From an uncultured Clostridia bacterium (GTDB taxonomy: Bacteria; Bacillota; Clostridia; Oscillospirales; Ruminococcaceae), in contig CANRFR010000010.1 of NCBI GenBank assembly GCA_947629945.1, positions 1-44,087 on the forward strand: a stretch of 44,087 nucleotides of DNA, given 5' to 3'. A program made the position numbers and the translations under genes. The notes beneath the pieces are model-generated. The model was not told where the DNA came from. It made no database searches and saw only the letters and a program-made list of their open reading frames with translations. Below, one piece after another: positions 7,403 through 30,784 of this stretch (its first letter is position 1; every line of letters starts with the position of its first letter).

Positions 7403-7891
7403 ATGAACAGAGACGAGATAGAGATAACCGATTTTGACGAAATAGACAAAGTGCTGAGCGAATCGAGGGTGTGCAGAATAGCGCTTTTCGACGGCGACTG
7501 GCCTTATATAGTGCCGATGTGCTTCGGATACAATCTTAAGGGCGGCAAGCTGGAGCTTTTCTTTCGCTGCGAGGAAAAGGGCAAAAAGCTCGACCTTATA
7601 AAAAACAACTCCAACGCCGCGTTTGAGATAGATAAGCTGCGCGAGATCGTTAAAACCGACAGGTTCTACGGCTTTTCCGTGCCGTCCTACAAAAGCATCA
7701 CCGGCACGGGAGTTATCGAGGTGATAACGGGGATCGAAAAAATAACGGGTCTCGATTATATTATGAAAAAATACGGCGAAAAACCCGAAGAGGGCAAGCT
7801 GCCCGAACAGCTTTTGAACGCGTTCGCGGTGCTGAAGCTTACTGCGGGAGAATTTTGCTGTAAAGAACATAATGTGACGATCGAAAATTAA
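7403..7891 (+). CDS. Pyridoxamine-5'-phosphate-oxidase-fold (NimA-like) flavoprotein
   Basis: The 162-residue protein has the split-barrel fold pattern of small PPOX/NimA-type proteins: a helix (IDKVLSESRVCRIAL), strand DWPYIVPMCFGY, LELFFRCEEKGKKLDLIKNN, a middle segment, and a C-terminal strand pair (AVLKLTAGEFCCKEH). These proteins bind FMN, or sometimes F420 or heme, and include the nitroimidazole-resistance family. The substrate here is unknown. The ATG at 7403 is preferred over an in-frame start 51 bases upstream, because a purine-rich GGGG site sits just before it and the family starts at this point. It stands alone between the rpsT terminator and the TPR-SUFU gene. Confidence 0.85.
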   Translation: MNRDEIEITDFDEIDKVLSESRVCRIALFDGDWPYIVPMCFGYNLKGGKLELFFRCEEKGKKLDLIKNNSNAAFEIDKLREIVKTDRFYGFSVPSYKSITGTGVIEVITGIEKITGLDYIMKKYGEKPEEGKLPEQLLNAFAVLKLTAGEFCCKEHNVTIEN

Positions 7892-7946
7892 CAGTTTCGG
7901 CGCGCTTCGCGCACATATTTAAATTTATGAGGCGGTGATTTATCCG

Positions 7947-17490: not shown

Positions 17491-17550
17491 TATGCAGATA
17501 TGGCAGAACCGTCGGACATTCGGTTTGAGGCGGCATTACTTCAGTAGAGA
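17491..17550 (+). other. Left-junction copy J1: degenerate tRNA-Leu 5' half plus element arm
   Basis: TATGGCAGAACC...CGGTTTG aligns with the tRNA-Leu 5' half with several substitutions and one missing base. It then runs into GGCGGCATTACTTCAGTAG, a diverged copy of the element arm. It is the oldest-looking of five such junctions. Confidence 0.6.
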
Positions 17551-17557
17551 TTTTTAC

Positions 17558-17586
17558 TTGACAAATTCATAAAAATGTTGTATAAT
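17558..17586 (+). promoter_or_regulatory. tRNA-type promoter before junction J2
   Basis: TTGACA, 17-base spacer, TATAAT. The promoter and its upstream bases closely match those in front of the intact tRNA-Leu at 19080-19108, showing that the unit was duplicated. Confidence 0.8.
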
Positions 17587-17636
17587 ATTATTATGATGAT
17601 TATTGACAGTTCGATGTTAAATTGCGAAAATAACAC

Positions 17637-17688
17637 GTACCTGTGGCAAAATTGACATACCCAATAGATTTGGCAGCGTTACTACAGT
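17637..17688 (+). pseudogene. Left-junction copy J2: tRNA-Leu 5' half interrupted at the anticodon loop
   Basis: Thirty-five bases (17637-17671, starting GTACCTGTGGC and ending AATAGATTT) match the 5' half of the intact tRNA-Leu at 19158 with a few changes. The anticodon and 3' half are replaced by GGCAGCGTTACTACAG, the element arm. It keeps a promoter 50 bases upstream. Confidence 0.8.
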
Positions 17689-17743
17689 TATTTTTCCTTT
17701 GGGGTGTCGGATAGCTGCAAAATTAACATAAAAAATTAAATAA

Positions 17744-17798
17744 GCGCCCGTGGCGGAACTGGCAGACGCGTTGGATTTGGGCAGCGTTACTACAGTGG
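17744..17798 (+). pseudogene. Left-junction copy J3: tRNA-Leu 5' half (GCGCCCG type) plus arm
   Basis: 17744-17778 is a clean tRNA-Leu 5' half beginning GCGCCCGTGGCGG and ending GTTGGATTT. From 17779 it continues with GGGCAGCGTTACTACAGTGG. The acceptor strand is fully complementary to the 3' half at 30774-30780. Of all junctions, its arm is closest to the inverted arm at the right edge (17 of 19 positions). Confidence 0.85.
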
Positions 17799-17859
17799 AA
17801 TTTTTGGCGGTTGAAATAAAACAGAAAATCGACAAGTCTGATTCTGAGAGGGCGATCAG

Positions 17860-18156
17860 TTGAAAACTTATACACTTTGCGGCAGTATGCGATTTGCCGA
17901 AGAGATGAAGAAAATCGCTTATGAACTTGAAACCGGTAAGGGATATAATGTACTGCAATGCGTTTATTGCGAGGAAGATGTTATTCTGTCCGATGCGGAG
18001 CTTTCGCGGCTTGCGGCTGCTCATTACAAAAAAATTGACTTGAGTGACGGTATATACGTTGTAAATATTGGTGGATATATCGGCGAATCTGTTAAAAAAG
18101 AGATCGAATATGCCAAAGAACACGGGAAAGATATAGTGTATCATTACAATGGATAG
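17860..18156 (+). CDS. Nucleoside 2-deoxyribosyltransferase-like small protein
   Basis: The 98-residue protein has a TTG start with GAGAGGGCGA upstream. It begins KTYTLCGSMRFAEEMKKIAY and later has SDGIYVVNIGGYIGESVKKE and the EYAKEHGKDI helix. This is the Rossmann-like pattern of nucleoside 2-deoxyribosyltransferases and related DUF4406-type proteins, including the GS.RF nucleotide-site start and the GYIGxSxxxEIxYA segment. It is short but looks complete. It lies alone between two tRNA-Leu junction copies (J3 and J4), so it came with one mobile element and was left behind as a left-end remnant. Role in the host unknown. Confidence 0.75.
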   Translation: MKTYTLCGSMRFAEEMKKIAYELETGKGYNVLQCVYCEEDVILSDAELSRLAAAHYKKIDLSDGIYVVNIGGYIGESVKKEIEYAKEHGKDIVYHYNG

Positions 18157-18230
18157 ATTCGGATAATTAATGAGAGTGGAATTTTCCTGTGGCTGTCGGG
18201 CAGGTAAAAAATCGGCGGATAATTGAATAA

Positions 18231-18285
18231 GCGCCCGTGGCGGAACTGGCAGACGCGTTGGATTTGGGCGGCGTTACTACAGTGG
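18231..18285 (+). pseudogene. Left-junction copy J4 (candidate attL): tRNA-Leu 5' half plus arm
   Basis: 18231-18265 repeats the GCGCCCG-type tRNA-Leu 5' half of J3 without change through GGATTT. Then comes GGGCGGCGTTACTACAGTGG. The sequence just upstream (CTGTCGGGCAGGTAAAA...AATAA) is also related to that before J3. With the 3' half at 30733-30784 it would rebuild a complete tRNA-Leu(UAG). Confidence 0.85.
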
Positions 18286-18333
18286 ATGTTTTACTGAGTT
18301 TGTCAAAAGTAGAAAGTTGGGAGGTGATTTATT

Positions 18334-18990
18334 ATGAATAAGGAATGGTCTGAACTGAATAAAACAATGCAAACGCAAATCAATAAGAAAGGCACCTATA
18401 AAGCGGGAATTAATACTTTATTTGATTTACGAAATGAGTTAATGCAAACCTTAATATCGTTCAAAGAGGAATTATGCAGAGAGGATTTTGACGCAATCCC
18501 CTTTATAAGCGCAGACGGTTACCACAGTAAAACGATTGCCTATTCTATTTGGCATATTTTTCGCATTGAAGATATAGTTGCTCATACAGTGATAAATGAA
18601 GATGAACAAGTGTTTTTTACAGGCAATTATCAGTCACGTATCAATTCGCCAATAATTACAACAGGAAATGAACTTGTAAAACAGCAGATTGCAGACTTTT
18701 CAAAGCAGCTTAATCTGGAAGAATTATATTCATACATCTTTGAAGTAAGAGAAAGTACTGAGAAGATAGTTCAAAGATTGTCTTATGATGAATTGAAAAG
18801 GAAAATACCTGAAGATAGAAGAGAATATTTAAAATCATTGAATGTTGTAAGTACAGATGAAAATGCCATTTGGCTGATTGAATATTGGTGTAATAAAGAT
18901 ATTCGCGGACTAATTCAAATGCCGTTTTCAAGACATTGGATTATGCATATAGAAGCCTGTTTGCGTATTAGGAACAAATTGTATTTATAA
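18334..18990 (+). CDS. DinB-like four-helix protein
   Basis: The 218-residue soluble, mainly helical protein has a pattern fitting the DinB/YfiT metal-binding superfamily: KTIAYSIWHIFRIEDIVAHT near residue 70 supplies His ligands on helix 2, and SRHWIMHIEACLRIR near the end supplies further His residues. Members act as metal-dependent thiol or glutathione-type transferases, or have unknown roles. AT-rich with codon use unlike the core genes. GGGAGGTG before the ATG. It is the only gene between junctions J4 and J5 and so is cargo of an integrated element. Confidence 0.7.
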   Translation: MNKEWSELNKTMQTQINKKGTYKAGINTLFDLRNELMQTLISFKEELCREDFDAIPFISADGYHSKTIAYSIWHIFRIEDIVAHTVINEDEQVFFTGNYQSRINSPIITTGNELVKQQIADFSKQLNLEELYSYIFEVRESTEKIVQRLSYDELKRKIPEDRREYLKSLNVVSTDENAIWLIEYWCNKDIRGLIQMPFSRHWIMHIEACLRIRNKLYL

Positions 18991-19022
18991 GCAGAAGTTC
19001 AGGTTTTATCACACAGGAAATC

Positions 19023-19069
19023 GACAAAATTGGGATACGCGATAGATTTGGGCGGCGTTACTTTAGTGG
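19023..19069 (+). pseudogene. Left-junction copy J5: partly degraded tRNA-Leu 5' half plus arm
   Basis: ACAAAATTGGGATACGCGAT followed by AGATTT matches the D-arm and anticodon 5' strand of the GCACCTG-type tRNA-Leu. The acceptor strand is eroded. It continues into GGGCGGCGTTACTTTAGTGG and then a tRNA promoter. Confidence 0.75.
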
Positions 19070-19079
19070 AGATTTTTAC

Positions 19080-19108
19080 TTGACAAATTTACGAAAACCT
19101 TGTATAAT
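19080..19108 (+). promoter_or_regulatory. Promoter of the intact tRNA-Leu
   Basis: TTGACA (19080-19085), 17-base spacer, TATAAT (19103-19108). It begins 10 bases after the J5 arm, inside the element. Confidence 0.85.
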
Positions 19109-19157
19109 ATAATTGTGCTTATCGGCGATTTGATTTTAAATAGAGAGAAAATATTAT

Positions 19158-19242
19158 GCACCTGTGGCGAAATTGGCATACGCAATAGATTTAGGTTCTA
19201 TTTCCGAGAGGAGTGCAGGTTCGACCCCTGTCAGGTGCACCA
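19158..19242 (+). tRNA. tRNA-Leu (anticodon UAG), intact
   Basis: All parts are present: acceptor GCACCTG paired 7/7 with CAGGTGC, D-arm GCG/CGC, anticodon stem ATAGA/TCTAT with loop TTTAGGT (anticodon TAG), a class II variable arm, T-arm with TTCGACC loop, and encoded CCA at 19240-19242. It lies just inside the element's left end. It differs in acceptor and anticodon-stem bases from the interrupted tRNA (GCGCCCG type), so it is a divergent isoacceptor with the same anticodon that can replace the gene the element broke. Confidence 0.93.
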
Positions 19243-19289
19243 GTCATACAAAATTTTCCTCGGCAAAGCCGAGGAAAATTTTGTATGAC
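19243..19289. terminator. 22-bp perfect hairpin after tRNA-Leu
   Basis: 19243-19264 and 19268-19289 are exact complements around AAA. The GC core CCTCGGC/GCCGAGG is followed by AAAATTTT, which allows termination from both sides: the tRNA and the leftward defence operon. Confidence 0.8.
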
Positions 19290-19447
19290 GCAACCATGCG
19301 GGATCAATCTTCTCTTTTGCGTTACGCTGCTCTATTCGTCCGGGTGATGTTTCGTTTCAGAGCGCCTGCTTTATGAAAGGTCTATTTAGTCACAATTTCA
19401 CAATACAATTTATATAATGTTCAGCTCAAAGAGGGGGAAGTAATATC

Positions 19448-19558
19448 GTGCGCTACCACTTAGTTATCTTTAAACAACCGAACAACAAAACTGTCGGGCT
19501 ATATTCGAGCTATATTTTTACTTTCTTTTTTTACAGTCGTACTCCCGTTCAATTTTAA
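19448..19558 (+). pseudogene. Possible truncated small gene
   Basis: A GTG start with AGAGGGGGAAG upstream opens a 36-residue frame (RYHLVIFKQPNNKTVGLYSS, then low-complexity FTFFFYS). The first 20 residues look protein-like, while the rest runs into the antisense end of the DUF6339-like gene. Probably the stump of a gene cut by arrival of the defence cargo. Nothing else is visible in 19290-19498. Confidence 0.25.
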
Positions 19559-20302
19559 TTCATGCAGTTTTTTCATATAGTTAAAAGCCAGATCCCGAAT
19601 TTCGGAACTGTCAAGGAATTCCAAAGCAGTTACGGCCGCATAATGATTTAAGTATTTCTTGCACTCGCGGAAATAATCGGTAATACCCTCCGAACCGTCA
19701 AGTTCATTCTTGAAGTCCTTTATTGCAAGAAGAACCCCTTTCATTCGTTTGGGATTCATCCTGTTAAAAGTATCCATAACATCGGTACATATTGTTTGAT
19801 TTGTAAGCAACACTTCTGTCAAGGCATAGGGATTGCGATCATTTTTATCATATGTAAGATACCCGTACCACCAAAGTCTTGACAAAGCATTGTCGTTGAG
19901 CAAACTTCCGGGGGTCGTAACAAAAAACCTGGTTTTTATTGTATTCTCCCGTGCTTCTTGAAGCCAGCGATCTCTTATATATGTTTGATATTCGGGAACA
20001 ACGTGACATAAATATGTCCACATATACTTGTTTGAAGCCTGTAACGGGGTAAGGTTTTTGAACGCATCATAGACCAAACGCGTATTAACCAAATCATCCA
20101 GCGATTTTTGTGCATCATCCTTTTTCCCAGGTACATATGACGGTGTGAATTTGTCCACTTCAACAGTTGAAATCTTATAATAATCATTGCTGCCGAAATA
20201 TTCGTTTAACCATTCCCCATCAGTTATATATTTTTCTGCGTTTGCGGATATATCATTAACCAGTTTATCGTACGCTTCTTCGGTAAAAAAGCCCAACTGC
20301 AT
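19499..20302 (-). CDS. DUF6339-like protein of the defence cargo
   Basis: The 267-residue soluble protein has a central RLWWYGYLTYDKNDRNPYAL near residue 150 and the preceding TRFFVTTPGSLLNDNALS, which I associate with the DUF6339 family. Members are found next to DNA-modification and GHKL-ATPase genes, and their biochemical role is unknown. The ATG overlaps the upstream TGA by one base, so it is translated with the preceding gene. It is the last gene of the promoter-23.5 kb operon. The family call is moderate, the operon membership is firm. Confidence 0.65.
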   Translation of the reverse strand: MQLGFFTEEAYDKLVNDISANAEKYITDGEWLNEYFGSNDYYKISTVEVDKFTPSYVPGKKDDAQKSLDDLVNTRLVYDAFKNLTPLQASNKYMWTYLCHVVPEYQTYIRDRWLQEARENTIKTRFFVTTPGSLLNDNALSRLWWYGYLTYDKNDRNPYALTEVLLTNQTICTDVMDTFNRMNPKRMKGVLLAIKDFKNELDGSEGITDYFRECKKYLNHYAAVTALEFLDSSEIRDLAFNYMKKLHELKLNGSTTVKKESKNIARI

Positions 20303-21240
20303 CAGTTCATACCTCCTAACATCTGGTTCATCCCATCATTCATCTCACCAAGAGCATCATTAAGTCGTTTCAATGCGTCAAGAGCAATATTCCCCAACAG
20401 AGAATTTGCTAAGGCAGTCGTTGAATCCACGCTGTTTAAATCGTAACCTTTGGATTCGGCTTGCTTTTCAATGGCTCTGAACCACCTTTTTTCTTTGAAG
20501 CTTTCAAATTCGTCGGTATCTTCGTTCTGATAACTGCTCACAACATAACCGATTGCCTCAACAAGAACAGGATAAACAATTATTCCCGTGACATATCGCC
20601 TATATATGCCGTTGTCGGAGCTTGTTAATTGGCTGTAAAGGTCGTGAAGATTGCTTCTCAGGTCGATAACGATTTTGTCGGAATACTGCAAATCATCGAA
20701 ACATGGTTTTACATAATCGGATTGTTCGTCATTTTTTCTGATAAGGAATATAGAATCAATGGGCTTTTCCAATTCGGAAGCATCAATATAAATGATTCTG
20801 CTATCCTCCGTTGCAAGAATGTCGCCTTTCCTAACTTCAAAGGCAGATGAACCGAAATACAAATCGTTAAACTCACCCTCGCAACGGAAAATATCCATAT
20901 CTTTAGATGCTACGATACTGCACGCTACCTCGATCTTGTCAACAACCGCATATTTCGGAACTTTAACGGTCATTTCGCAGACATCCGCAGCAAATCTAAA
21001 CAGACGGCTGTAAGAAGCGGCACTGCTTTTTACCTTCACAATAACCGCAGCATCCTCTTTTTTAACCAAATCCGAAATACCCTTGCACTCTAAAACATAT
21101 TTTATCGGAAAGACGATATTCTCATTGTCCACAACAATTTTTTCATCGGGTAATTCGGTGTAAAACTTGCAGCTATCAATGTAATCATCTCTTCCCGAAG
21201 CAAGAACAGGATTCGGAAATTCGTATTTCTCGGATTTCAT
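20302..21240 (-). CDS. Uncharacterised 312-aa protein of the GHKL-ATPase operon
   Basis: No family is recognised. The first 200 residues look like beta-sandwich strands (VFPIKYVLECKGISDLV, AAVIVKVKSSAASYSRLFRF, VPKYAVVDKIEVACSIV). The rest is helical (GIIVYPVLVEAIGYVVSSYQ, ALANSLLGNIALDALKRL) and it ends in a Gly/Met/Asn-rich tail (MNQMLGGMN). GGAGG precedes the ATG, and the gene starts two bases after the ATPase stop and runs into the DUF6339-like gene with a one-base overlap. Tight coupling suggests that the three proteins act together. Confidence 0.75.
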   Translation of the reverse strand: MKSEKYEFPNPVLASGRDDYIDSCKFYTELPDEKIVVDNENIVFPIKYVLECKGISDLVKKEDAAVIVKVKSSAASYSRLFRFAADVCEMTVKVPKYAVVDKIEVACSIVASKDMDIFRCEGEFNDLYFGSSAFEVRKGDILATEDSRIIYIDASELEKPIDSIFLIRKNDEQSDYVKPCFDDLQYSDKIVIDLRSNLHDLYSQLTSSDNGIYRRYVTGIIVYPVLVEAIGYVVSSYQNEDTDEFESFKEKRWFRAIEKQAESKGYDLNSVDSTTALANSLLGNIALDALKRLNDALGEMNDGMNQMLGGMN

Positions 21241-21242
21241 TT

Positions 21243-23150
21243 CTAAACAACCTCCGTAAGACGCAATTTTAACATCATTTTTTCTTTCCTTGCGAATGTT
21301 ACAAAGAACACAGCCGGTGTATCTGCGTTAATTGAAATTGCTCCCGCTTTGCCGTCTTTAACATGCACGGTTTTCGAATTGTAAGTAAAAGTTTCAATAT
21401 CCAACAGATCGTCATTCCCGTCCTCTCCGACGGCTAAGGCTTCGACAAACAGGTTGTTATGAGCTTCCGCTGTTTTGATGACGACTTTATACAGCCCTTT
21501 GGAAACGTTAATCGGAAACGCTCTCTGCGCCGAAATGTTTTCAACAGTCACGGTCTTTGTTCCCTTTCCGGAGCTAACTCCCGGACGTGGTTTGGGTTCA
21601 TTCGGATTAGGGGTAACAAGCTTGGTCGGTGGCTTCGGTGGCAATGGCTTGGGATTTCGCGTTTTGTTGTTTACTTTCCCGTTATTCTCGGTTCCTTTTG
21701 ATTTTACTGCCGTATTTGTTGTTGTTCCTTGAGAAATACGGTTAACCTGAACCTTTCCGATTTTTACCTTAGCTTTTAGAATATCGTCACCTTTGCCTTT
21801 ATCGGAGTCTTCCGCAGTTTCATCGGGAAAATATTCTCCGACCCCTACGGCATCCACAATATCTTTTGTATTCGTTTCATACTGAGACTTTAACAGTTGT
21901 AATACAAAGGAATCGATTTTGTCTATCGAAGTTTTAGCTTTATTACGTTTCTCTTTCTCGGAAGAAACAATCTGCTTGTAGTCCCAACGATTATGACGAG
22001 GCGGTTCGGTGTCTCTCAGCAACGACCCGAGTTCTTTTCCGCGGACAATTACCACCGCCGCATAATGCTGAGATATTCTTTTATAATAGGAGCCAACCAT
22101 CATTCCCGTTTCCCTGAAGTTGGCAATTGTTCGGCTATAGCTGTTGTCGGATTTAACATATACCTCAACGTCATCCGGTTCAAACACTTGCAACTTTTCT
22201 CTGCAATCGGGAGATATGAAAGCGTTGTACAATTGATAAGCCGAAGCCATTTCCCTTTCGGAAGAATAGTCCAAAAACAGCTGTGAAATAGTGTTAGAAT
22301 CGATAACAGTTACCTTGTTCTGATCTTTCAATTCAACAATCAGTTTGTTTTCAATAACAGCAACAAAGAAATTCTTAAGCACGGCTTTTGTAATATTTGA
22401 AACCCAACCGTGTGATTCCGTAAAACCGGCAATAATAACATCGGTTCCGCGTTCGGTTCTGGAAAACAAATCTCTGAAATCGTTTGCGTCGGATTGATAA
22501 ATCGGAGTGCGATCGGTCTTCTGATATTTACCGACACGTTGCGTGGGCGCTCCGTCGTTGTTTAGAATAGTCGCGAGCTTAGCTACTCCTACAAATGCAC
22601 CATCGCCCTTTTCGTCTACGGTGTTATAAAAAACCATACTTAATGCGGAACACGCAAACGGAGCGTTTTTTCCGATGCCATACGACCCTGCACTATATTC
22701 ATTATTTTTCACGGAAACGCCTTCGGAACTTGTAAGCCCTACCCATCCTGATTTTATGTCTTCGGTGTGACTGCCATCCAAGCCCTTCGTATTATAGTCA
22801 CTCGCAACCAACGTCAAAACATACGGCTCTTTAAGTGTTTTTTCCGCATTTGTAACGAATTGTGAGAGTCTGGAATCCATATTATCTCCCCAGTATTTAC
22901 GGCATCTTTCCAGGCAGTCCGAATATTGCGAAAAAACATCGTATTGGTCTGCCTTAATTTTTTTCAGTTCAAAAACAACCCTTACAGGCATATCCAAACC
23001 ATCCAAATGCACATCAAGAGAGTTTTGGCATATTTCGCGAGCCAAATTATCAATCATCTCATGCCCTTTGAAACCCTCAATGTCGTTATTGGTATAGCCC
23101 TGTTGCTGTCCTCCGTCAAGCAGAGGAAATCGCCATTCGGTGTTTTTCAC
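21243..23150 (-). CDS. GHKL/MORC-type ATPase
   Basis: The 635-residue protein has an N-terminal GHKL (gyrase-Hsp90-histidine kinase-MutL) ATP-binding domain. The N-box is REICQNSLDVH with E39 and N43, the G1 box is ASDYNTKGLDG near residue 120, and the G2 lid is SAGSYGIGKNAPF near 160. A transducer-like region follows to about 370, then a Lys/Pro-rich linker (about 480-530, PPKPPTKL) and a C-terminal beta domain of about 110 residues. Prokaryotic MORC-like ATPases of this type occur with cytosine methylases and Vsr or other nucleases in modification-dependent defence loci, which fits the context. The GTG start is set by AAGGAGGG. It would act on DNA in the cytoplasm as an ATP-gated clamp. Confidence 0.82.
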   Translation of the reverse strand: MKNTEWRFPLLDGGQQQGYTNNDIEGFKGHEMIDNLAREICQNSLDVHLDGLDMPVRVVFELKKIKADQYDVFSQYSDCLERCRKYWGDNMDSRLSQFVTNAEKTLKEPYVLTLVASDYNTKGLDGSHTEDIKSGWVGLTSSEGVSVKNNEYSAGSYGIGKNAPFACSALSMVFYNTVDEKGDGAFVGVAKLATILNNDGAPTQRVGKYQKTDRTPIYQSDANDFRDLFSRTERGTDVIIAGFTESHGWVSNITKAVLKNFFVAVIENKLIVELKDQNKVTVIDSNTISQLFLDYSSEREMASAYQLYNAFISPDCREKLQVFEPDDVEVYVKSDNSYSRTIANFRETGMMVGSYYKRISQHYAAVVIVRGKELGSLLRDTEPPRHNRWDYKQIVSSEKEKRNKAKTSIDKIDSFVLQLLKSQYETNTKDIVDAVGVGEYFPDETAEDSDKGKGDDILKAKVKIGKVQVNRISQGTTTNTAVKSKGTENNGKVNNKTRNPKPLPPKPPTKLVTPNPNEPKPRPGVSSGKGTKTVTVENISAQRAFPINVSKGLYKVVIKTAEAHNNLFVEALAVGEDGNDDLLDIETFTYNSKTVHVKDGKAGAISINADTPAVFFVTFARKEKMMLKLRLTEVV

Positions 23151-23162
23151 AACATTCCCTCC

Positions 23163-23390
23163 TTACCTTAATGTAAATCTGCCCTCACGCTGCTCATCGG
23201 AACCAAAAAACTTGTTTTTGGTATTTTTAAGTTCTCGCTCAATGGCTGTGAATATTTTTTTCACATCGTCTTCCGAATAATCATAGTTTGATTTGCTTGC
23301 ACAATTGCCGAGAAGTTTCAACATATCAAGAATCTTATTGGTTCTGGCTTCTGCGATCCTGATAAATCTGTCCCTCTTACTTTCTGCCAT
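23163..23390 (-). CDS. Small helical protein, first gene of the GHKL operon
   Basis: The 75-residue, strongly charged protein (KRDRFIRIAEARTNKILDML, then NYDYSEDDVKKIFTAIEREL) is likely two or three helices. I recall similar short proteins upstream of restriction-modification genes, but there is no functional assignment. GGGAGG precedes the ATG. It ends 12 bases before the ATPase GTG. The RFIRIAEARTNKI helix is basic and could contact nucleic acid. Confidence 0.7.
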   Translation of the reverse strand: MAESKRDRFIRIAEARTNKILDMLKLLGNCASKSNYDYSEDDVKKIFTAIERELKNTKNKFFGSDEQREGRFTLR

Positions 23391-23476
23391 TACTGTATAC
23401 CTCCCGCTGACATATGATACATATCGGTTTAATCAAAACATATATTCTATATATTTTTTGAACATTCCGTAAATAT

Positions 23477-23505
23477 ATTATAGCACACCGCTTTACATTT
23501 GTCAA
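23477..23505 (-). promoter_or_regulatory. Consensus promoter of the GHKL-ATPase operon
   Basis: Read leftward: TTGACA, 17-base spacer, TATAAT. It serves the four genes from 23390 down to 19499. The leader is about 80 bases and AT-rich. Confidence 0.9.
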
Positions 23506-23547
23506 TATATTTTTCAAATAAATTCTATATTTTTGTAATATATTAAG

Positions 23548-23575
23548 AAATGCGGCGCATATAAGCGCCGCATTT
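23548..23575 (-). terminator. Hairpin between the methylase and GHKL operons
   Basis: AAATGCGGCGC and GCGCCGCATTT form an 11-bp stem just after the methylase stop. The T-tract is short (TTTC), so termination may be partial. Confidence 0.75.
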
Positions 23576-23579
23576 CATT

Positions 23580-24707
23580 TTATTCGTTAGGAAGATCGCC
23601 CAGAATTTCGAAACAATTCAGCATAAACTCTGCCATGGTTTTTATTACCGGTATTGTTACGGAATTTCCGAATTGCTTATATTGTTGTGCTTGTGACAAT
23701 CCGGGTGGGAACGAAAATTGATCAATACCATTTTCATCAATAAACGCATAATTGATGAACCCCTGTAGTTTTCCCCATTCTCTTGGTGTCATCACGCGAA
23801 TTCCTTTATCGTTCAACGGCGTCTTTTTTGTGGGAATGTCCGTGCCGGCTATCCCTTCCTGAGGATCAAAAACCAAATTGCGCTCTTTTCCGGATCCCCC
23901 CGTAGCCATTATTGTATTCGCGATCGGATGAGGGGTTTGCGGCATATTGACTATTTTATAACCGAAGCCGTTCCCTTTATTCTTTTCGCGCTCTTTGTGC
24001 TTTTCCAAGGTTTCCAAATAGCCGGATGACATATAATACTTAGGTTCCGCATGTAATTCAAGTAGACCATTCAGATCTTCATATAAGTTTAAATCGTTTC
24101 CTTCCGGTAAACGGTTTGCGATCCTTCCCAACAATTCGTTGCCATATCTCTGCCTGTCAAATGCCATAATATATGTTCGAGGTCTGTTTTGAGGAACACC
24201 GAAATTTTTGGAGTTTCGAATAAAACTTTTCCAATTATATGTCTGTTCGCCGTTTTCGTTATAATCAACGCCAATAACCTTATAGTTCAACGTGTTTTCC
24301 AGTCTTGAAATAATTGTTTTAAATGTGTTCCCATCGTCATGGCGGACGAGGTTATCAACATTTTCAAGGAAAATCGAACGGGGTTTGGTTAATTCGATTA
24401 TTTCGGCAATGTGATCAAATATGATCCCTTTTTCTTCATCATTGAAACCTTCTTCCAATCCCGCACGGCTGAATGTTTGACACGGGAAGCCTGCAAGAAG
24501 GACATCGTATGGATTGTTGCGCAATTTTTGTTTGAATTCATCAGAAGTTAAATCATTATACGGATCCCCGCTATACAAATGCGAATATGTCATACAAGCA
24601 TATTTGTCGATCTCGGCAGAAATAACGTTAACGAATTCTCCCGTCAGTTCAAATCCTTTTCTTATTCCGCCTATTCCGGCACACAGATCAATTGTTCTAA
24701 ATGGCAT
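23580..24707 (-). CDS. DNA (cytosine-5)-methyltransferase
   Basis: The 375-residue methylase has the C5 motifs in order: I (DLCAGIGGIRKGFE, SAM site), IV (GFPCQTFSRAG with catalytic Cys), VI (ENVDN), VIII (QNRPRTYIMAF), IX (TPREWGKLQGF) and X (QYKQFGNSV). The target-recognition region (about 190-290) does not reveal the site. The ATG at 24707 is chosen over an upstream in-frame start, since the family begins MxFRTIDLCAG and GGGAGAG precedes it. The start overlaps the last base of the nuclease gene (TAATG). It marks self DNA in a restriction-like locus. Confidence 0.95.
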   Translation of the reverse strand: MPFRTIDLCAGIGGIRKGFELTGEFVNVISAEIDKYACMTYSHLYSGDPYNDLTSDEFKQKLRNNPYDVLLAGFPCQTFSRAGLEEGFNDEEKGIIFDHIAEIIELTKPRSIFLENVDNLVRHDDGNTFKTIISRLENTLNYKVIGVDYNENGEQTYNWKSFIRNSKNFGVPQNRPRTYIMAFDRQRYGNELLGRIANRLPEGNDLNLYEDLNGLLELHAEPKYYMSSGYLETLEKHKEREKNKGNGFGYKIVNMPQTPHPIANTIMATGGSGKERNLVFDPQEGIAGTDIPTKKTPLNDKGIRVMTPREWGKLQGFINYAFIDENGIDQFSFPPGLSQAQQYKQFGNSVTIPVIKTMAEFMLNCFEILGDLPNE

Positions 24708-25123
24708 TATCTTCTCTCCCAAAACGCTTTTTCGATTTTGTCCGCACATTCGCTCACATTATGTTTGATCTCATACCCCCAAAAACGAAGGACAAGCCAA
24801 CCGTCCGATTGCAATGCGGCATTTACTTCAGCATCTCTCTGCATATTTCTTTCAATTTTTTTGATCCAAAAGTCACGGTTTGATTTAATATCGTTTTGCC
24901 TGTTTTCCCAATCAAATCCATGAAAGAACTCGCTATCAACAAAGATCGCAATCTTTTTGCCGATAAAGGCAATGTCGGGTTTTCCTGTTATTGAGGCAAC
25001 GTTTTTCCTGTAACGCAGGTTCCGTTTCCACAGTTCTTTTCGCAACAGGATTTCGATCTTTGAGTCTTTGTTTTTTATCTGTCGCATATTATAACTGATT
25101 TGTTCTTGCGTTTTGTTACTCAT
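24707..25123 (-). CDS. vsr: Vsr-like DNA mismatch/very-short-patch endonuclease
   Basis: The 138-residue protein has the Vsr layout: NMRQIKNKDSKIEILLRKEL at the start, YRKNVASITGKPDIAF with the metal-binding Asp, IAIFVDSEFFHGFDW, then FWIKKIERNMQRD, and LQSDGWLVLRFWGYEI near the end. The usual FVDGCFWHGC is altered here to FVDSEFFHGFDW, so the zinc-type Cys is missing. Vsr nicks at T:G mismatches left by 5-methylcytosine deamination. In loci like this it could instead be the restricting nuclease. The ATG at 25123 overlaps the regulator stop, and a GTG at 25132 is possible. Confidence 0.88.
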   Translation of the reverse strand: MSNKTQEQISYNMRQIKNKDSKIEILLRKELWKRNLRYRKNVASITGKPDIAFIGKKIAIFVDSEFFHGFDWENRQNDIKSNRDFWIKKIERNMQRDAEVNAALQSDGWLVLRFWGYEIKHNVSECADKIEKAFWERR

Positions 25124-25490
25124 TTTCTTCACCGAATCTTTCAGCTACCTTATGCCAATCGGAATCGTTTTTTTCGGATTTCATACCGACAAGTATGGCT
25201 TGGTAGATATTGGGGTTAGAGTAAAAATACTTGGCAATATCATGAGGGATCGAGCCTCTTTCTTCAGCTGCCAAAAACCTTAGCTTTACAGCGTCCGTTT
25301 CATCAAGTGACAGTGTATGAATTATTTGCTCCAAAAGCTCCCCTTGAGGCGGCGCATTTTTGCCTTGTTCAATAAGCGAGACCATCATTTTACCGCGACC
25401 AATTGCGGATGCCAAGTCCGCCTGGGTAACAGCGGGGTTGCGATTAAGGCGTAACTGCCTGAGAAATTTGCCAAATCTCAAGTTGTCCAC
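25116..25490 (-). CDS. XRE-family HTH regulator of the methylase operon
   Basis: The protein has 124 residues with an HTH at about 5-65 (NPAVTQADLASAIGRGKMMV, SLIEQGKNAPP), then a helical tail. It is likely an autoregulating, controller-type repressor or activator of the modification genes. The start is set at the GTG at 25490. The longer frame from 25505 would begin inside the ribosome site GGAGGTGA, which sits five bases before this GTG. First gene of a three-gene operon (regulator, nuclease, methylase) with overlapping ends. Confidence 0.85.
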   Translation of the reverse strand: MDNLRFGKFLRQLRLNRNPAVTQADLASAIGRGKMMVSLIEQGKNAPPQGELLEQIIHTLSLDETDAVKLRFLAAEERGSIPHDIAKYFYSNPNIYQAILVGMKSEKNDSDWHKVAERFGEENE

Positions 25491-25530
25491 AATTGTCACC
25501 TCCATAAGAAATAAGTAAATTTATATATTT

Positions 25531-25559
25531 ATTATAAAATATTTTTCGCTATTTGTCAA
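25531..25559 (-). promoter_or_regulatory. Consensus promoter of the regulator-nuclease-methylase operon
   Basis: Read leftward: TTGACA, 17-base spacer, TATAAT, about 40 bases before the GTG. AT-rich surroundings could hold the regulator's operator. I see no clear inverted repeat. Confidence 0.9.
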
Positions 25560-25674
25560 CCCTTTTTCACAAAGAGTTGTGGAGGATCATTGTTTTTACG
25601 TTTTGACCTTGATGAAACCGCTTCCACTTTTCCGCTTCATATAGTTTGTCTTATGCTTTGTCTAAGCTTTAGCT

Positions 25675-27216
25675 TTATTGCTTGAAATCCCCATTAAACT
25701 CCAGCACCACATCAATCCCGCCATCCTCGTCGTTGAACACCTTGACCTCTTTCAGCATCCGCAAGTTGGCGTCCGACACATAGCCGCTTGAGATTATCTC
25801 GTTCAGCAGCTCGGAGGTGCTTTTCAGGCTGTCACGCTTTTGGCGGCTTACCTCGTTGTATTTTTGACTGTCGGATATCTTCTGCTCCAGTTCCGCGATC
25901 TCATTCTCGCGCTTCTCAATCATGCTGTCGTAATATTCAGATCGGGTTTTATCCGTGACCTTGCCCATGATCAAATCCTCGATCTGATTTTTCAAGGCGG
26001 TGATCTTCTCTGTATATCGCTTGATGTTCTGCTCGTAAAGCGGCTTTTTCCTTATCCAATCTTTGATGATCTGCTCGTATTGTTCGCTTTCCGCAACCAC
26101 CTTATCGCGTATATAAATCAACTGTTTGTTGACGATCTCATCGAGCTGCGACTGATGTATTCGGTGCGGTGTGCAGTATTGTTTTCCATATCTGTGGTGG
26201 TTGTTGCAGGTGTATTCAACGTATTCCTTTCCCTGCCAGTTACGCCTTTTCGCTATCAAGATCGCGCCGCAGTCTCCGCATCTTATCAGCCCCGAATAGC
26301 GATGAATTATTTTACCACGCCCCGCTCTGACGTTGGATTTCGGGCGCTGTTCGAGAAGAAATTGCGCCTGAGCCCACATCTGCTTGTCTATTATCGGCGG
26401 CAGAAAATCCTCGTGGCGGTAGCGTTCCTCATCGGGAATTTCCTTTCGTGTATGGTAGATCTTTGAGATAGAAGTCTTGTGATTTACAAGCGTTCCCGTG
26501 TAGCTTTCGTTTTGGAGAAGCCGTTTTACGGCGGTCTGTGTCCAAAGGAACTTTTTGCACATCTCGGTTCGGGTAGAGCTTATTTTTCTATGCGAGAAAT
26601 ATTCGGGAGATTTGATACCTCGTTTATTAAAATCTCTGGCAATAGCGGTTATTCCATGCCCACCGATATATCGTTGGAACACCTCGCGGATTATCTCCGC
26701 GGCTGTTTCATCAATGAGAACCTCTCCCGTATTCTTGTCCTTGTAGTACCCCATCGGGAGGTTGACAACCAGACCTGTCTTTTGCTTTTGACGTATTCCC
26801 GCGCGGACTTTCTTGCCTATATCTTTAGCGTAGAAGTCGTTGAATATTTGCTTGAACCCGATCAGCAGATCGTCGTTTTCATTCGTGGTATCTATGCCCT
26901 CTGTGACCGATATGACCTTGACATTGTTCTCTCGAAGGTGGTCAATAAAGAGCGCGGTCTGCGTCCTGTGCCGTCCTAATCTTGACAGATCTTTTACCAG
27001 AACCGCCTCGACCTTGCCCTCATCAACTGCGTTTTCAAGTTCGTTCAAGCCCTTGCGGTCGAAGGTCATTCCCGAGACATTGTCGTCAAAACTTTCGCCG
27101 ACGACCTCGTAATTGTTCTGACGAGCATAGTCGATAAGTATTTGCCGCTGGTTCTGTAAGCTGTTCATTTCCTCGTCCTCATCGCGGGACAGTCGATAGT
27201 AAAGCCATGCTTTCAT
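25675..27216 (-). CDS. Large serine recombinase (site-specific integrase)
   Basis: The 513-residue protein has a resolvase catalytic domain (1-150) with the YYRLS motif placing the nucleophile at Ser10 and the helper arginines in LVKDLSRLGRHR. A recombinase domain follows (about 160-290, LPMGYYKDKNTGEVLIDE, LLQNESYTGTL). A zinc ribbon has Cys pairs at about 313/316 and 336/347, and a long coiled coil (about 395-465) is typical of integrases that need a directionality factor. It has the Tn4451/TndX-type layout. It is the obvious enzyme for the att sites at the tRNA-Leu halves. ATG start, AAAGGATGATAAT upstream. It follows two small genes that may regulate it. Confidence 0.95.
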   Translation of the reverse strand: MKAWLYYRLSRDEDEEMNSLQNQRQILIDYARQNNYEVVGESFDDNVSGMTFDRKGLNELENAVDEGKVEAVLVKDLSRLGRHRTQTALFIDHLRENNVKVISVTEGIDTTNENDDLLIGFKQIFNDFYAKDIGKKVRAGIRQKQKTGLVVNLPMGYYKDKNTGEVLIDETAAEIIREVFQRYIGGHGITAIARDFNKRGIKSPEYFSHRKISSTRTEMCKKFLWTQTAVKRLLQNESYTGTLVNHKTSISKIYHTRKEIPDEERYRHEDFLPPIIDKQMWAQAQFLLEQRPKSNVRAGRGKIIHRYSGLIRCGDCGAILIAKRRNWQGKEYVEYTCNNHHRYGKQYCTPHRIHQSQLDEIVNKQLIYIRDKVVAESEQYEQIIKDWIRKKPLYEQNIKRYTEKITALKNQIEDLIMGKVTDKTRSEYYDSMIEKRENEIAELEQKISDSQKYNEVSRQKRDSLKSTSELLNEIISSGYVSDANLRMLKEVKVFNDEDGGIDVVLEFNGDFKQ

Positions 27217-27302
27217 ATTATCATCCTTTCTGTTTTGGCACGCGCACTCGGCAGTGCTGCGTTACCACAACACTACCACATTGCGCTCGAAATATCCAGC
27301 GG

Positions 27303-27482
27303 TTATTTCGCTTTTGACGGATTTTCTACATTACCGACAAGAGCGTTCTCCTGTAATTTGGGCAGTTTATCCGAAATCAAATAATCGGAGATCATGCCTT
27401 TCATAAATGCTCTGAACGCTTCCTTATTACCGGAGTATCTTGCCATAATAAAGCTGATCTTAGGTTCTTTGAGTTTTTTCAA
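27303..27482 (-). CDS. Small element protein upstream of the recombinase
   Basis: A TTG start overlapping the preceding TGA by four bases (TTGA), with GGGGAGGAC eight bases upstream, opens a 59-residue frame: KKLKEPKISFIMARYSGNK, then EAFRAFMKGMISDYLISDKL, ending in NPSKAK. It is basic and helical with no known motif. Its place directly before the recombinase and after the ribbon-helix-helix gene fits a directionality or accessory factor, but that is inference. It ends 87 bases before the recombinase start. Confidence 0.7.
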   Translation of the reverse strand: MKKLKEPKISFIMARYSGNKEAFRAFMKGMISDYLISDKLPKLQENALVGNVENPSKAK

Positions 27483-27895
27483 ATAGTGTCCTCCCCATTT
27501 TGAAATCTGACCGCGCTCTCAAAACTGATCGCGCCGTTTATGTGCCTAACTTCATCAACACACATCGCGTGGAGCTCTCGCAAGGTATCTTCGTCAACAT
27601 CGTTCGCGGCAGCTAATGTGTGAGCGATCTTACCGAGTTCAACCGCCATCTTGAACATATTTCGGTTCATGCGCTGTTCGCAGCCGTTGACGACAGCCTC
27701 CATTGTGGAAGTGATCATCGGCGATAAGTAGTTTACGTTTTTCTCCTGTTTGAGGTAGCCAAGATAGAACTTTATCGCCTTTTCTATGAACTCGCTCTTG
27801 GAGCGACAGTTGTCTGATTCGTAAGTATTTTCAATCTCTCCGTCCGTTGATGGGTAAATCCACAATGGTACTCTAATTTTGGTTTCATGCTCCAT
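27479..27895 (-). CDS. Ribbon-helix-helix-like element protein
   Basis: The 138-residue protein has an N-terminal part (ETKIRVPLWIYPSTDGEI, then RSKSEFIEKAIKFYLGYLK) with the strand-helix-helix order of RHH DNA-binding proteins. A helical C-terminal region of about 80 residues follows (MITSTMEAVVNGCEQRMNRN). It may be a regulator, a partition-type protein, or an accessory of a relaxase that is not present. The ATG at 27895 is preferred because GAAAGGAG lies before it. First of the three-gene run to the recombinase. Confidence 0.75.
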   Translation of the reverse strand: MEHETKIRVPLWIYPSTDGEIENTYESDNCRSKSEFIEKAIKFYLGYLKQEKNVNYLSPMITSTMEAVVNGCEQRMNRNMFKMAVELGKIAHTLAAANDVDEDTLRELHAMCVDEVRHINGAISFESAVRFQNGEDTI

Positions 27896-28025
27896 AGAAA
27901 CTCCTTTCATTCATCTAAGAATTGGCTTAACCGCTTGCATTGCATTAGAGCAGGTGCACCTGAATTCAGCCAAACAGGCGGTTACAGCCACCTTATTTCT
28001 TGCACTTCCTTTTCCACAATTCGCC

Positions 28026-28074
28026 TAACAGCGGTCGGCTTTGCCGTCCGCTGTTATCGCCGGGTACACCCGGC
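28026..28074. other. Two adjacent hairpins in an otherwise empty gap
   Basis: A 14-bp near-perfect stem (TAACAGCGG...CCGCTGTTA, 28026-28056) is followed by GCCGGGT-AC-ACCCGGC (28059-28074). The gap 27896-28091 shows nothing else. They could be a terminator, a recombination or transfer site, or a replication signal for the nearby RepA-like protein. Confidence 0.5.
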
Positions 28075-28091
28075 TTTAACTTGCATGAAAA

Positions 28092-28322
28092 TCATAACCT
28101 CGCCCCTGCCCGATTCTGACTTGAAATCTGCTCAAATAACTCCTGCATTTTGCTCGGTTTGATGTTCTGCTCAAACTCGCTCGGAAACGGCTCAAATTTC
28201 GCTCCGTATTTGCTCGGCGAGGTGTTACTCTACTCGGCGGGAAACCTCGCTAAAACCGCCCGTCAAGCATCGGGAAAGGCGGGAACGATGATCCCGTCCT
28301 TAGCAAGACTTGATTTCATCAT
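28092..28322 (-). pseudogene. Interrupted 76-codon reading frame (internal TGA and TAG)
   Basis: Directly after the RepA-like stop, one frame runs MMKSSLAKDGIIVPAFPDA, TGA, RAVLARFPAE, TAG, then SNTSPSKYGAKFEPFPSEFE and QNIKPSKMQELFEQISSQNR to a final TGA. The three segments read as one coherent hydrophilic protein with repeated FPxE pieces. They sit in the same frame, so two point mutations to stop would explain it. Only the final 18 codons could start at a Met after the stops. It is probably a decayed small protein of the element core. Recoding is possible but not supported by any signal. Confidence 0.5.
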
Positions 28323-29462
28323 TTACGCCGCCATTGCTATGAGCGCATCACCCTGCGTTCGTTCAACAGGGACAGCATAATTTTCACTTGAAAGATCGAT
28401 GCTGCCAGTCTCGATCAAGCTGTAATCAGCATTTGCGACATCTTCAGGGACGGAAGGAACAGCATTTTTCGTACACAATTTTCTACCGCCACTGCTGTCC
28501 CTCTCGGAAGTGTAGCTGATAAATATTTTGCGCGTGCCGTTGCTTTTTGTTTTTCCGTAGTCAATTCCAAGAGCGCGGATCTCATCATCGTGTTGGAGCA
28601 GATCGCGGTAGAGCCAGTTGCTGTTAAATTCCTGTTCAGGGAATTTTTCTTTCAGCATAGAACAAATTTCCGAAGCAGTTCCGCTTACCGAATTTTTCTC
28701 CAGCATAAAATCATGAATTGTGAAGGAGAAAATATCCGACGCACTTTCGGGCGCATCATCGAGCAATATCCACTTGGACTTCTCTCTTTTCAAATTCAAC
28801 TCCAGCGAAGGTGCGCCTCTGCCGCTGATGTGGAGCTTCGCGTTTTCACCGCTGCGAGTGAACACAAGCAAACCGTCAGCGCAGCCTGCTATGCCATTCG
28901 TTCCCGAAATGAGATTGTTGGGATTTGAATCGCGAGCCTTGCGGTTGTGATGAACAAGAACGATAGCGATCCCGAGTTGGTCGGCAATACCTTTTAGAAC
29001 AGAAAGCTCTTGATAATCCGCGCCGTACTTTGTGTCAATGTTGTTCCTGATTTTCTGAAGCGTATCGATAACTATCAGTTTCAATTCTGGAAACATCTTC
29101 TTGCAATCCCGAAGATCTTCCTCCAAGCCGCTGCCGATCGAATTTGCGAGCATTGTGAAGAACTGATTCTCGCTTGGCTCATCTGTCAACTCATACATTC
29201 GCGACTGCAAACTGACGAACGTATCCTCAAGCGCCATGTACACGACTTGACCGCGCTCGGTTTTCCTGCCGAAAAAATCTCCGCCCTTTGCGACTGCTAG
29301 ACACATATCGAGCATCATCCACGACTTGCCGATCTTCGGATCTCCGGACAAAATATGGATGCCGGGATAGATCATCCCGTCAACTATGAACCTCTGTTTT
29401 TTCATCGGTGTGTTCATAATTTCTACGCTGCTGATAAGCTCCAACTTTTTTCTTTCGCCCAT
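28323..29462 (-). CDS. RepA-like RecA-fold ATPase of the element
   Basis: The 379-residue protein has a hexameric-helicase/RecA fold: Walker A GDPKIGKSW near residue 40, EDTFVSLQSR, Walker B KLIVIDTLQK near 130, and AIVLVHHNRKARDSNPN, the sensor/H-motif seen in plasmid RepA and phage replication ATPases. A C-terminal DNA-binding-like segment (SEICSMLKEKFPEQEFNSNW) follows. It is likely to support replication or maintenance of the excised circle. ATG at 29462 with GGGAGG. A hairpin with a T-rich tail lies in its leader, suggesting attenuation. Confidence 0.85.
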   Translation of the reverse strand: MGERKKLELISSVEIMNTPMKKQRFIVDGMIYPGIHILSGDPKIGKSWMMLDMCLAVAKGGDFFGRKTERGQVVYMALEDTFVSLQSRMYELTDEPSENQFFTMLANSIGSGLEEDLRDCKKMFPELKLIVIDTLQKIRNNIDTKYGADYQELSVLKGIADQLGIAIVLVHHNRKARDSNPNNLISGTNGIAGCADGLLVFTRSGENAKLHISGRGAPSLELNLKREKSKWILLDDAPESASDIFSFTIHDFMLEKNSVSGTASEICSMLKEKFPEQEFNSNWLYRDLLQHDDEIRALGIDYGKTKSNGTRKIFISYTSERDSSGGRKLCTKNAVPSVPEDVANADYSLIETGSIDLSSENYAVPVERTQGDALIAMAA

Positions 29463-29490
29463 TAAATTCCTCCCGTCAAATAAATTTTCC

Positions 29491-29522
29491 GAAAACAAAA
29501 TCCCGCCGATGAACAGCGGGAT
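29491..29522 (-). terminator. Terminator-like hairpin in the leader of the RepA-like gene
   Basis: Read leftward: ATCCCGC, nine-base loop, GCGGGAT, TTTTGTTTT. It ends about 30 bases before the ATG. It may end the transcript of the HTH gene or attenuate the ATPase gene. Confidence 0.65.
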
Positions 29523-29674
29523 CGCCCTCTATAAACCTACCGACATAAGGAAAAGATTTTATGCACGGGGAAATTATAATTTTTAGTTTTGTATGGTTGC
29601 ACAAATTTTTATAATCGATTATATGAATTTTGCACATGATCGTTTTGTGAGAAACATAATCAGCCAACGCTTGA

Positions 29675-30472
29675 TTATGCGTCGGCTGATAAGAAGCTTC
29701 TGAATTTTTTGATCTTGCGCGAGATCGTACTTTGGGAAACACCAAGTCGTTCGGCAATTTCGCTTTGGGTGTGACCCTCGGACAATAAACTGATGATCTC
29801 GCGTTCCTGTTCGGTAGAACTGTTGATAAGGCTCTCGATAAGAATATGTATATCTGCTGCGGTTTCGACATTCGTTTTATCGGGGATCTGCGGCGATTCG
29901 TCGTCCGGAAAGCGCTCTGCCATTTCGTCAAGTGACCCGACCTTCATTTTTGCGCGAGTGTGATTCCATTTTTTGATGTGATCCATTCGAGGGTAGTTCA
30001 AGGCTTTGTTCGGGTTGAAGTCCTCGTCGCACGAATACTCCTTTGCGGTTTTCGATATTCCCTCAATGTCCAAAGTTTGCATGAGCGCGTTTGTTGTATT
30101 ATGGAGCGCTTCATCGCTGCTTTTCCTCTTTAAAAACATCGGTATGATAAAACGCCAAAGCATTTTCCAAAACGTTTTCTTATTATCGCACAGCCTGACC
30201 ACGTTATCCGCGATGATACGCTGGACTCTATCCCTGATAAGCTCCGGAGGAAAGTCCTTTGAGTAACACTCCTGCGGATGTGTCAGTCCTAATGACTTCG
30301 AGATAGATTTCCACTCCGAATTAACGATACGTAGCACTCTGTTATAGAGCTTCAATTGCTTTTCGGTATATTCGGACGGGTCCTTGACGGGCATAGTAGA
30401 AAAGTCGTTGTTGTGGAATTGCTCTCTGAGCCTGTCCAATGTTATTTCTTCTTTATTAAATAGGTCTGACAT
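29675..30472 (-). CDS. Element regulator with C-terminal sigma-region-4/LuxR-like HTH
   Basis: The 265-residue protein has a poorly conserved N-terminal 200 residues that are charged and partly helical. The C-terminus EREIISLLSEGHTQSEIAER followed by LGVSQSTISRKIKKF is a clear tetrahelical HTH as in sigma-70 region 4 or transposase-type regulators. It is probably the first gene of the element core transcript and a candidate controller of it. ATG with GGAGGATAG. A consensus promoter and an operator-like repeat lie upstream, and a hairpin (29663-29692) overlaps its end. Confidence 0.75.
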   Translation of the reverse strand: MSDLFNKEEITLDRLREQFHNNDFSTMPVKDPSEYTEKQLKLYNRVLRIVNSEWKSISKSLGLTHPQECYSKDFPPELIRDRVQRIIADNVVRLCDNKKTFWKMLWRFIIPMFLKRKSSDEALHNTTNALMQTLDIEGISKTAKEYSCDEDFNPNKALNYPRMDHIKKWNHTRAKMKVGSLDEMAERFPDDESPQIPDKTNVETAADIHILIESLINSSTEQEREIISLLSEGHTQSEIAERLGVSQSTISRKIKKFRSFLSADA

Positions 30473-30513
30473 CTATCCTCCATTATCTCAACTACCGTTT
30501 TGGTACTTTTGAT

Positions 30514-30534: not shown

Positions 30535-30559
30535 ACCCTATATTCACACTTGCCTTTCT

Positions 30560-30712: not shown

Positions 30713-30784
30713 CCACTGTAGTGTCGCTGCCATTAGGTTCCAATTTCGAGAGAAGTGCAGGTTCGATTCCTGTCGGGCGCACCA
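30713..30784 (+). pseudogene. Right junction (attR): inverted arm plus tRNA-Leu 3' half
   Basis: 30713-30731 is CCACTGTAGTGTCGCTGCC, the complement of the left arm with two mismatches to J3. From 30733 follows TTAGGTTCCAA, a class II variable arm, T-arm with TTCGATT, CGGGCGC, A and CCA. That is the anticodon loop to 3' end of a tRNA-Leu whose acceptor pairs 7/7 with GCGCCCG of J3 and J4. Its anticodon-stem strand TCCAA pairs with their TTGGA. Confidence 0.88.

Follow-up and report, generated by a model that had tools for sequence, protein, structure and literature searches.

The window analysed here is a 44,087-nt stretch of contig CANRFR010000010.1 from an uncultured Clostridia bacterium of the Ruminococcaceae, in which a stack of severed tRNA-Leu genes ends in an intact tRNA-Leu(UAG) at the left end of an element encoding a large serine recombinase (LSR). 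Comparison of its sequence with related genomes makes it very probable that a family of such LSR elements inserts in the anticodon loop of tRNA-Leu genes and carries a replacement tRNA, into which the next element then inserts.

Five severed tRNA-Leu 5' halves, each joined to a recombinase arm (junctions J1 to J5), precede the intact gene (Table 1). An earlier note on this DNA had described these five copies and the intact tRNA-Leu(UAG) that closes the series, and both were borne out: a repeat search recovered the family at each of the five positions, the arm was found five times in the window with three or fewer mismatches but not once in 100 shuffled sequences, and ARAGORN called the tRNA at 19158-19242. 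Four of the arm matches belong to J2, J3, J4 and J5, and the fifth is inverted, at 30713-30732. Both J3 and J4 are clean, with a half of the form GCGCCCG...GGATTT followed by the arm GGGCRGCGTTACTACAGTGG, and share 94% identity over 72 nt. The statement that each copy ends in GATTT does not apply to the heavily decayed J1 (tRNA part from 17494), which terminates in GGTTTGAG. J2, a decayed GCACCTG-type half, is one base short. The 5' part of J5 is also decayed. As had been noted, J1 and J5 lead into the same arm-promoter stretch, with 83% identity over 72 nt.

The right end of the element, which the earlier note did not contain, was found at 30713-30784. Here the inverted arm runs into ATT-AGGTTCCAATTTCGAG...GGGCGCACCA, the 3' half of a host tRNA-Leu(UAG). 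The left and right 20-nt arms are inverted repeats around a TT, and the cut lies within the anticodon loop (GGAT-TT-AGG). The attP site deduced from attL and attR consists of two inverted arms around the central dinucleotide TT, as expected of an LSR element. attL and attR each keep only half of the tRNA gene and no functional tRNA is rebuilt; an attP restoring the tRNA 3' end, which would be expected of a tyrosine-integrase island, was not found in the window. The element measures ~12.5 kb (18266-30732), with its start at 17779 if J3 is the left end, and the carried tRNA lies within its ends.

When J4 and attR are rejoined, the resulting gene matches the intact tRNA-Leu(UAG) genes of the relatives G020 and G037 at 84 of 85 positions but the carried tRNA at only 69 of 85, and the carried tRNA is therefore foreign. 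These identities indicate that the element split the host gene and brought in a different tRNA-Leu(UAG). The carried tRNA is the sole exact-pattern match to tRNA-Leu(UAG) in the assembly, which is 97.75% complete, and so it is likely to be needed for viability after integration. A BLAST search of the assembly that used the carried gene as query gave no other full-length copy.

The recombinase of the element has 513 aa, and the order of its Resolvase, Recombinase and Zn-ribbon domains and its size fit the LSRs; it is of the serine type and not a tyrosine-family integrase. Insertion would be catalysed by this enzyme. The elements are apparently non-phage. A phage origin was considered and found no support in PHROGs, where, among 10 open reading frames (ORFs) of the window's element, head and packaging families gave only weak matches (E 3e-4 or worse), through the LSR tail and a helix-turn-helix, or in viral_contigs, where no close LSR relatives were found. 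No relaxase was detected among the eight ORFs of 18266-30732 (the larger ones) run in Pfam.

A scan of genome_contigs yielded 48 loci with relatives of this LSR, many of them in genomes named Ruminococcus, among which are R. bicirculans 80/3 and isolates of R. flavefaciens. An intact tRNA-Leu (UAG or CAG) was present on the expected side of the LSR in 33 of the 48. In three more (L061, L090 and L087) a severed 3' half occupies the position of the carried tRNA, as expected if a later element had split it. Eight loci were uninformative, with no more than 1.7 kb on the expected side (L051, L058, L059, L068, L074, L084, L094 and L095), although one of them, L059, shows a partial tRNA at the contig edge. 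Thus, 36 of the 40 informative loci have a tRNA-Leu or a severed 3' half where it was expected. Together with the right end and the carried tRNA in the window, this agrees with the proposal in the earlier note that the element inserts in the anticodon loop and carries its own full tRNA-Leu at its left end. Its further proposal, that left ends pile up in order as element bodies move right and decay, is matched by two right ends in series at L094 and by the severed 3' halves.

For comparison of the LSRs with their tRNAs, the window and 32 of the 33 loci with an intact tRNA were placed in a tree (L067 was left out), and in 28 of them one or more junctions were scored. The carried tRNA agrees in anticodon class with the last dead half in all 28, and in 23 of the 28 stacks the carried tRNA starts within 140 bp of the cut (measured from J5 in the window). 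LSR clades separate largely, not wholly, by UAG or CAG target. Over these 28 loci, LSR distance was correlated more strongly with distance between carried tRNAs (r = 0.38, p = 0.0002) than between last dead halves (r = 0.23, p = 0.005). The genome of the window also contains a second stack at a tRNA-Leu(CAG) on contig C164, with a matching right end on C65. Outside this CAG stack (G000:C164:3484-4935) there is another serine recombinase, which is 32% identical.

The two ends of an insertion can be matched through the tRNA stems. In all eight loci that were tested with the two ends on a single contig, the stack contains one or more junctions that pair with the attR 3' half at 12/12 acceptor- and anticodon-stem positions (G-U counted; L067 excluded for Ns after the junction). 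For L049 and L082 the last junction is the best partner of attR and for L053 either the last or the first, whereas pairing does not distinguish among the junctions of L065 and L072.

The left flank of the window matches contig C31 of the sister species G039 at 77-82% DNA identity. There, ten junctions were found by the junction model and a truncated eleventh by eye directly after a DUF4272 gene, followed by an intact tRNA-Leu(UAG). The 218-aa ORF located between J4 and J5 has a 92% identical copy in the G039 stack, and therefore the older part of the two stacks is common and the newer part different. Two tRNA types alternate near the intact tRNA of G039. Genome G040 has the upstream genes in common with the window (74-79% identity; not the DUF4272 gene), and 5.7 kb further on carries a tRNA-Leu(UAG) with TTGACA/TATAAT and no junction found, which is likely the same site, empty. 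In G014 and G020, two junctions lie downstream of a match to the DUF4272 gene (67-68% identity). The comparison of junction numbers suggested in the earlier note thus gave about 11 in the sister species, two in G014 and G020 and none found at the likely equivalent site of G040.

At least 21 of the 43 genomes of the genus, that of the window included, have one or more junctions, counted among the matches listed that reach model position 52 or beyond, with look-alike hits dropped, most of them on their score, and with part of the rows checked by sequence. Across the family, 21 of 297 genomes and 13 of 126 genera pass an E value of 1e-12, at least one of these genomes (G002) being a look-alike, since the junction model also matches intact tRNAs whose variable arm resembles the recombinase arm (L219, L215). 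In these two loci (L219 at G002:C7 and L215 at G034:C95), the anticodon stem and variable arm of an intact tRNA-Leu(UAG) are like the recombinase arm, a resemblance that perhaps hints at an ancestral half-site.

The units of a stack (a dead 5' half, its arm and the spacer up to the next tRNA) were compared with their neighbours. Among 29 distinct UAG units, spacer distance was correlated with distance of the tRNA half that comes next (r = 0.26, p = 0.0002) but not of the one before (r = 0.04, p = 0.24). The difference was larger in 13 UAG units of the genus of the window plus L049 (following r = 0.51, p = 0.0008; preceding r = -0.02, p = 0.47) and in the eight units of the G039 stack alone (following 0.59, p = 0.002; preceding -0.05). 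A label-swap test was weaker (p = 0.051, 0.038 and 0.098 for the 29 units, the genus plus L049, and G039, respectively). None of these 13 units comes from the window, whose own units did not qualify for the 59 spacers described next because of decay or wide spacing.

A promoter-like site scoring at least 10/12 was present in 7 of 59 distinct spacers, four of which have the TTGACA/TATAAT kind seen in the J1 and J5 units of the window. A promoter of its own in every unit was rejected on this count. The left end described in the earlier note, arm, promoter and tRNA, is found at J1, J5 and some other spacers; as most spacers lack a promoter, it is one of at least two designs. Ahead of the first junction, a site of at least 10/12 was found within 150 bp in 19 of 30 hand-picked stacks, and 17 of these 19 score higher than 95% of mononucleotide-shuffled versions of that stretch. 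Because few spacers but many stack starts have promoter-like sites, many carried tRNAs are probably transcribed from the promoter of the host tRNA, through the dead 5' halves in between.

Of 48 distinct spacers that lack TTGACA, 27 have a best possible H-type pseudoknot that scored above all 20 dinucleotide shuffles, where 2.3 would be expected; these sequences are related and so do not count as independent, and a few of the 27 represent other structures. In the usual form, stem 1 has 4-6 bp, stem 2 has 5-9 bp and the third loop is rich in A; its end mostly lies 5-14 nt ahead of the tRNA. By eye, the stems vary in sequence among spacers yet stay paired. The possible pseudoknot occurs in both the UAG and CAG families (e.g. 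L177, L066, L054 and L222), and at the five loci compared with Rfam, tRNA was the only family to pass its gathering score. The structure may serve to shield the new tRNA transcript from the severed 5' halves.

In the mechanism that we propose, the LSR would insert the element into the anticodon loop of a tRNA-Leu(UAG) or tRNA-Leu(CAG), with TT as the core in the window, and the essential tRNA gene would be split. The host would survive through the left end, which brings an entire tRNA-Leu that agrees with the split gene in anticodon class and orientation. Some left ends have their own promoter; for most, which have none, the host promoter ahead of the first severed half would read through. The carried tRNA would be a valid target in which later elements insert, and in this way severed 5' halves would gather in order on the left, with right ends and bodies nesting rightward and getting lost.

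Several observations weigh against this mechanism. Elements with no tRNA at the left end had been named in the earlier note as contrary evidence, and although 36 of 40 loci fit, four (L048, L057, L078 and L079) show no tRNA on the expected side with at least 5 kb visible. In L048 a tRNA and a long stack lie 13.7 kb off on the same contig, which leaves L057, L078 and L079 as exceptions. In 5 of the 28 stacks (L055, L073, L080, L081 and L089) a distance of 0.3 to 6.6 kb separates the last junction from the tRNA. Among 11 CAG loci, LSR distance tracks the carried tRNA and the dead half equally (0.66 and 0.65), and 21 CAG units were uninformative in the spacer comparison (r = 0.32 on both sides, swap p = 0.50). 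The best promoter ahead of the first junction of the window reaches only 8/12. The attR of the window pairs with J3 and J4 though J5 is the last junction, and an earlier junction is likewise the best partner in L066 and L086. Finally, ARAGORN also passes several mismatched combinations of halves, and so only stem counts discriminate among them.

The pairing results are the point at which another history of the stacks has to be considered. After nested insertion, the inner left junction could recombine with the outer right one, whereupon both bodies would leave and a hybrid tRNA and an extra left junction would stay, so that stacks would grow by cycles of gain and loss and not by decay. Such cross-excision scars would account for an earlier junction being the best partner of attR in the window, L066 and L086, and for the many successions of junctions spaced 60-260 bp apart with no body between them. 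However, the attR of L049 and of L082 pairs best with the final junction, in keeping with simple nesting, and in the window a GCACCTG-type half and the outer attR would pair at 6/7 acceptor (one G-U) and 3/5 anticodon-stem positions, a hybrid that ARAGORN still accepts. We regard cross-excision as the main source of the stacks as possible but rather unlikely, and such scars may contribute to the pairing results. Under nested insertion, the pairing of the window attR with J3 and J4 and not with J5, whose anticodon stem ATAGA pairs with attR at 3/5 positions by eye, means that an inner right end is missing, and inner right ends must likewise have been lost in L066 and L086. Simple nesting with loss of inner right ends explains the pairing results.

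A single insertion followed by local tandem duplication of one junction, the alternative already raised in the earlier note, is very improbable. The 94% identity of J3 and J4 and the two alternating tRNA types of the sister stack could be read in its favour. Nevertheless, tRNA types change along stacks, junction number varies by species at one locus, and UAG spacers track the next tRNA and not the previous one. In G039, two pairs of units have identical tRNA halves on both sides and spacers just 92% and 88% identical. Duplication of a left junction also leaves out the serial right ends of L094 and the severed 3' halves in the place of the carried tRNA in L061, L090 and L087.

That the severed halves are decoys or regulatory RNAs under their own selection, as the possible pseudoknot in many spacers and small palindromic inserts in some dead halves might suggest, is hardly credible, given that dead halves decay (J1, J5), range in number from 0 to about 11, and have an exact cut point that insertion alone explains. 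The palindromic inserts themselves were seen near the D-arm of dead 5' halves in several genomes (e.g. GTTAACTTCGTTAAC), at L206 (about 7500-7900), L221, L231 and L102 (about 4211).

Table 1. Features of the tRNA-Leu stack and of the LSR element in the window.
Feature	Positions	Strand	Remarks
J1: decayed tRNA-Leu 5' half (17494-17528) and arm (17529-17549)	17494..17549	+	half read by eye
Promoter-like TTGACA-N17-TATAAT, J1 unit	17558..17586	+	read from sequence; inside repeat D4
J2: GCACCTG-type tRNA-Leu 5' half (decayed, one base short) and arm	17637..17690	+	
J3: GCGCCCG-type tRNA-Leu 5' half and arm	17744..17798	+	full pairing with attR
J4: GCGCCCG-type tRNA-Leu 5' half and arm	18231..18285	+	full pairing with attR; likely attL
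218-aa ORF, J4-J5 interval	18334..18990	+	92% identical copy in sister-species stack
J5: decayed tRNA-Leu 5' half and arm (19050-19069)	19015..19069	+	right partner not found in window
Promoter-like TTGACA-N17-TATAAT ahead of carried tRNA	19080..19108	+	read from sequence
Carried intact tRNA-Leu(UAG), predicted fresh attB	19158..19242	+	ARAGORN
Perfect 22-bp inverted repeat, terminator-like, after carried tRNA	19243..19289	+	repeat search
PDC-M33 C, B and A candidate defence genes	19499..23150	-	
C5 cytosine DNA methylase	23580..24749	-	
Endonuclease	24707..25132	-	PHROG 13076
LSR	25675..27216	-	Resolvase, Recombinase, Zn-ribbon domains
AAA_25 / DnaB-like ATPase	28323..29498	-	
Protein with sigma-70 region-4-like helix-turn-helix	29675..30472	-	
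Inverted arm, right end of element	30713..30732	-	
attR: core TT and 3' half of split host tRNA-Leu(UAG)	30733..30784	+	

The cargo of the element includes a group of genes at 19499-25505, namely the PDC-M33 A, B and C candidate defence genes, the C5 methylase, the endonuclease and a weakly HipB-like regulator. The endonuclease may be Vsr-like. Two other repeats were observed in the window: two head-to-tail copies of a 79-bp repeat, 92% identical, at 42331-42488, and a region to the right of attR (about 31043-31305) that recurs whole or in part on several other contigs of the genome at ~81-93% identity.

Tyrosine-integrase islands that restore the 3' end of a tRNA gene were reportedly described by Williams in 2002. 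Such islands target tRNA genes, as the elements described here do, but their attP repeats the 3' part of the tRNA and restores the gene, whereas in the window the core measures 2-3 bases and the element brings an entire foreign gene. The use of tRNA genes as targets restored at the 3' end by these islands is also described by Guerrero-Bustamante and Hatfull (2024; PMC10865867), whose subject is a closer parallel, tRNA-dependent lysogeny in temperate phages with tyrosine integrases, mainly actinobacteriophages. In that system, as here, insertion takes place inside a host tRNA with a short core, the tRNA is not rebuilt and the element brings a full tRNA of the same isotype. The recombinases and carriers differ, being tyrosine integrases and phages there and, here, a serine recombinase in apparently non-phage elements of Ruminococcus and relatives. 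Its authors speculate on the integration of a second plasmid, or tandem integration, using the carried tRNA as attB; serial stacks of junctions with the carried tRNA usually beside attL, as found here, were not encountered in the parts of the paper available. The Lactobacillus johnsonii prophage Lj965, as treated in those parts, also has a junction that rebuilds no tRNA and a cognate tRNA within the prophage; it is a single prophage for which they mention no stack, in contrast with the stacks found here.

Among serine-recombinase elements, IME_Rho_tet (PMC12904643) resembles those described here in being small elements of gut Bacillota with a serine recombinase and 21-bp inverted end motifs; 45% of its matched sites are MAFF2 ORFs, whereas the target here is tRNA-Leu. 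The term tRNA is absent from the main text of PMC12904643, and both "tRNA" and "anticodon" from that of Durrant et al. 2022 (PMC10083194). No report of serine recombinases at tRNA anticodon loops or of such stacks was found in the parts available of PMC12904643, PMC4701971 and PMC9897764, or among the titles and abstract openings of the literature covered, in which subscription journals are thinly represented. The view in the earlier note that no renewing anticodon-loop target is known for serine recombinases therefore still holds to that extent, but the principle of a replacement tRNA is already in print for tyrosine-integrase phages (PMC10865867). The elements described here would add a serine-recombinase version of tRNA replacement, with its repeated re-use on record in nature.

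On balance, we find it fairly probable that this is a self-renewing LSR target, in which each element destroys a tRNA gene that the host needs and puts a copy of its own under the host promoter, with an RNA pseudoknot as a shield. The cell would stay viable, the newest left end would be undeletable, one fresh attB would always be available, and the left side would be an ordered entry record of several lineages. If so, tRNA replacement would extend beyond tyrosine-integrase phages to serine recombinases of gut anaerobes, and one site would take element after element, its targets never being exhausted. The cell would depend on its newest element, and its stack would be an ordered record of past insertions, comparable among species. 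An LSR family with UAG or CAG targets would also be natural material for studies of LSR specificity and for stable integration.

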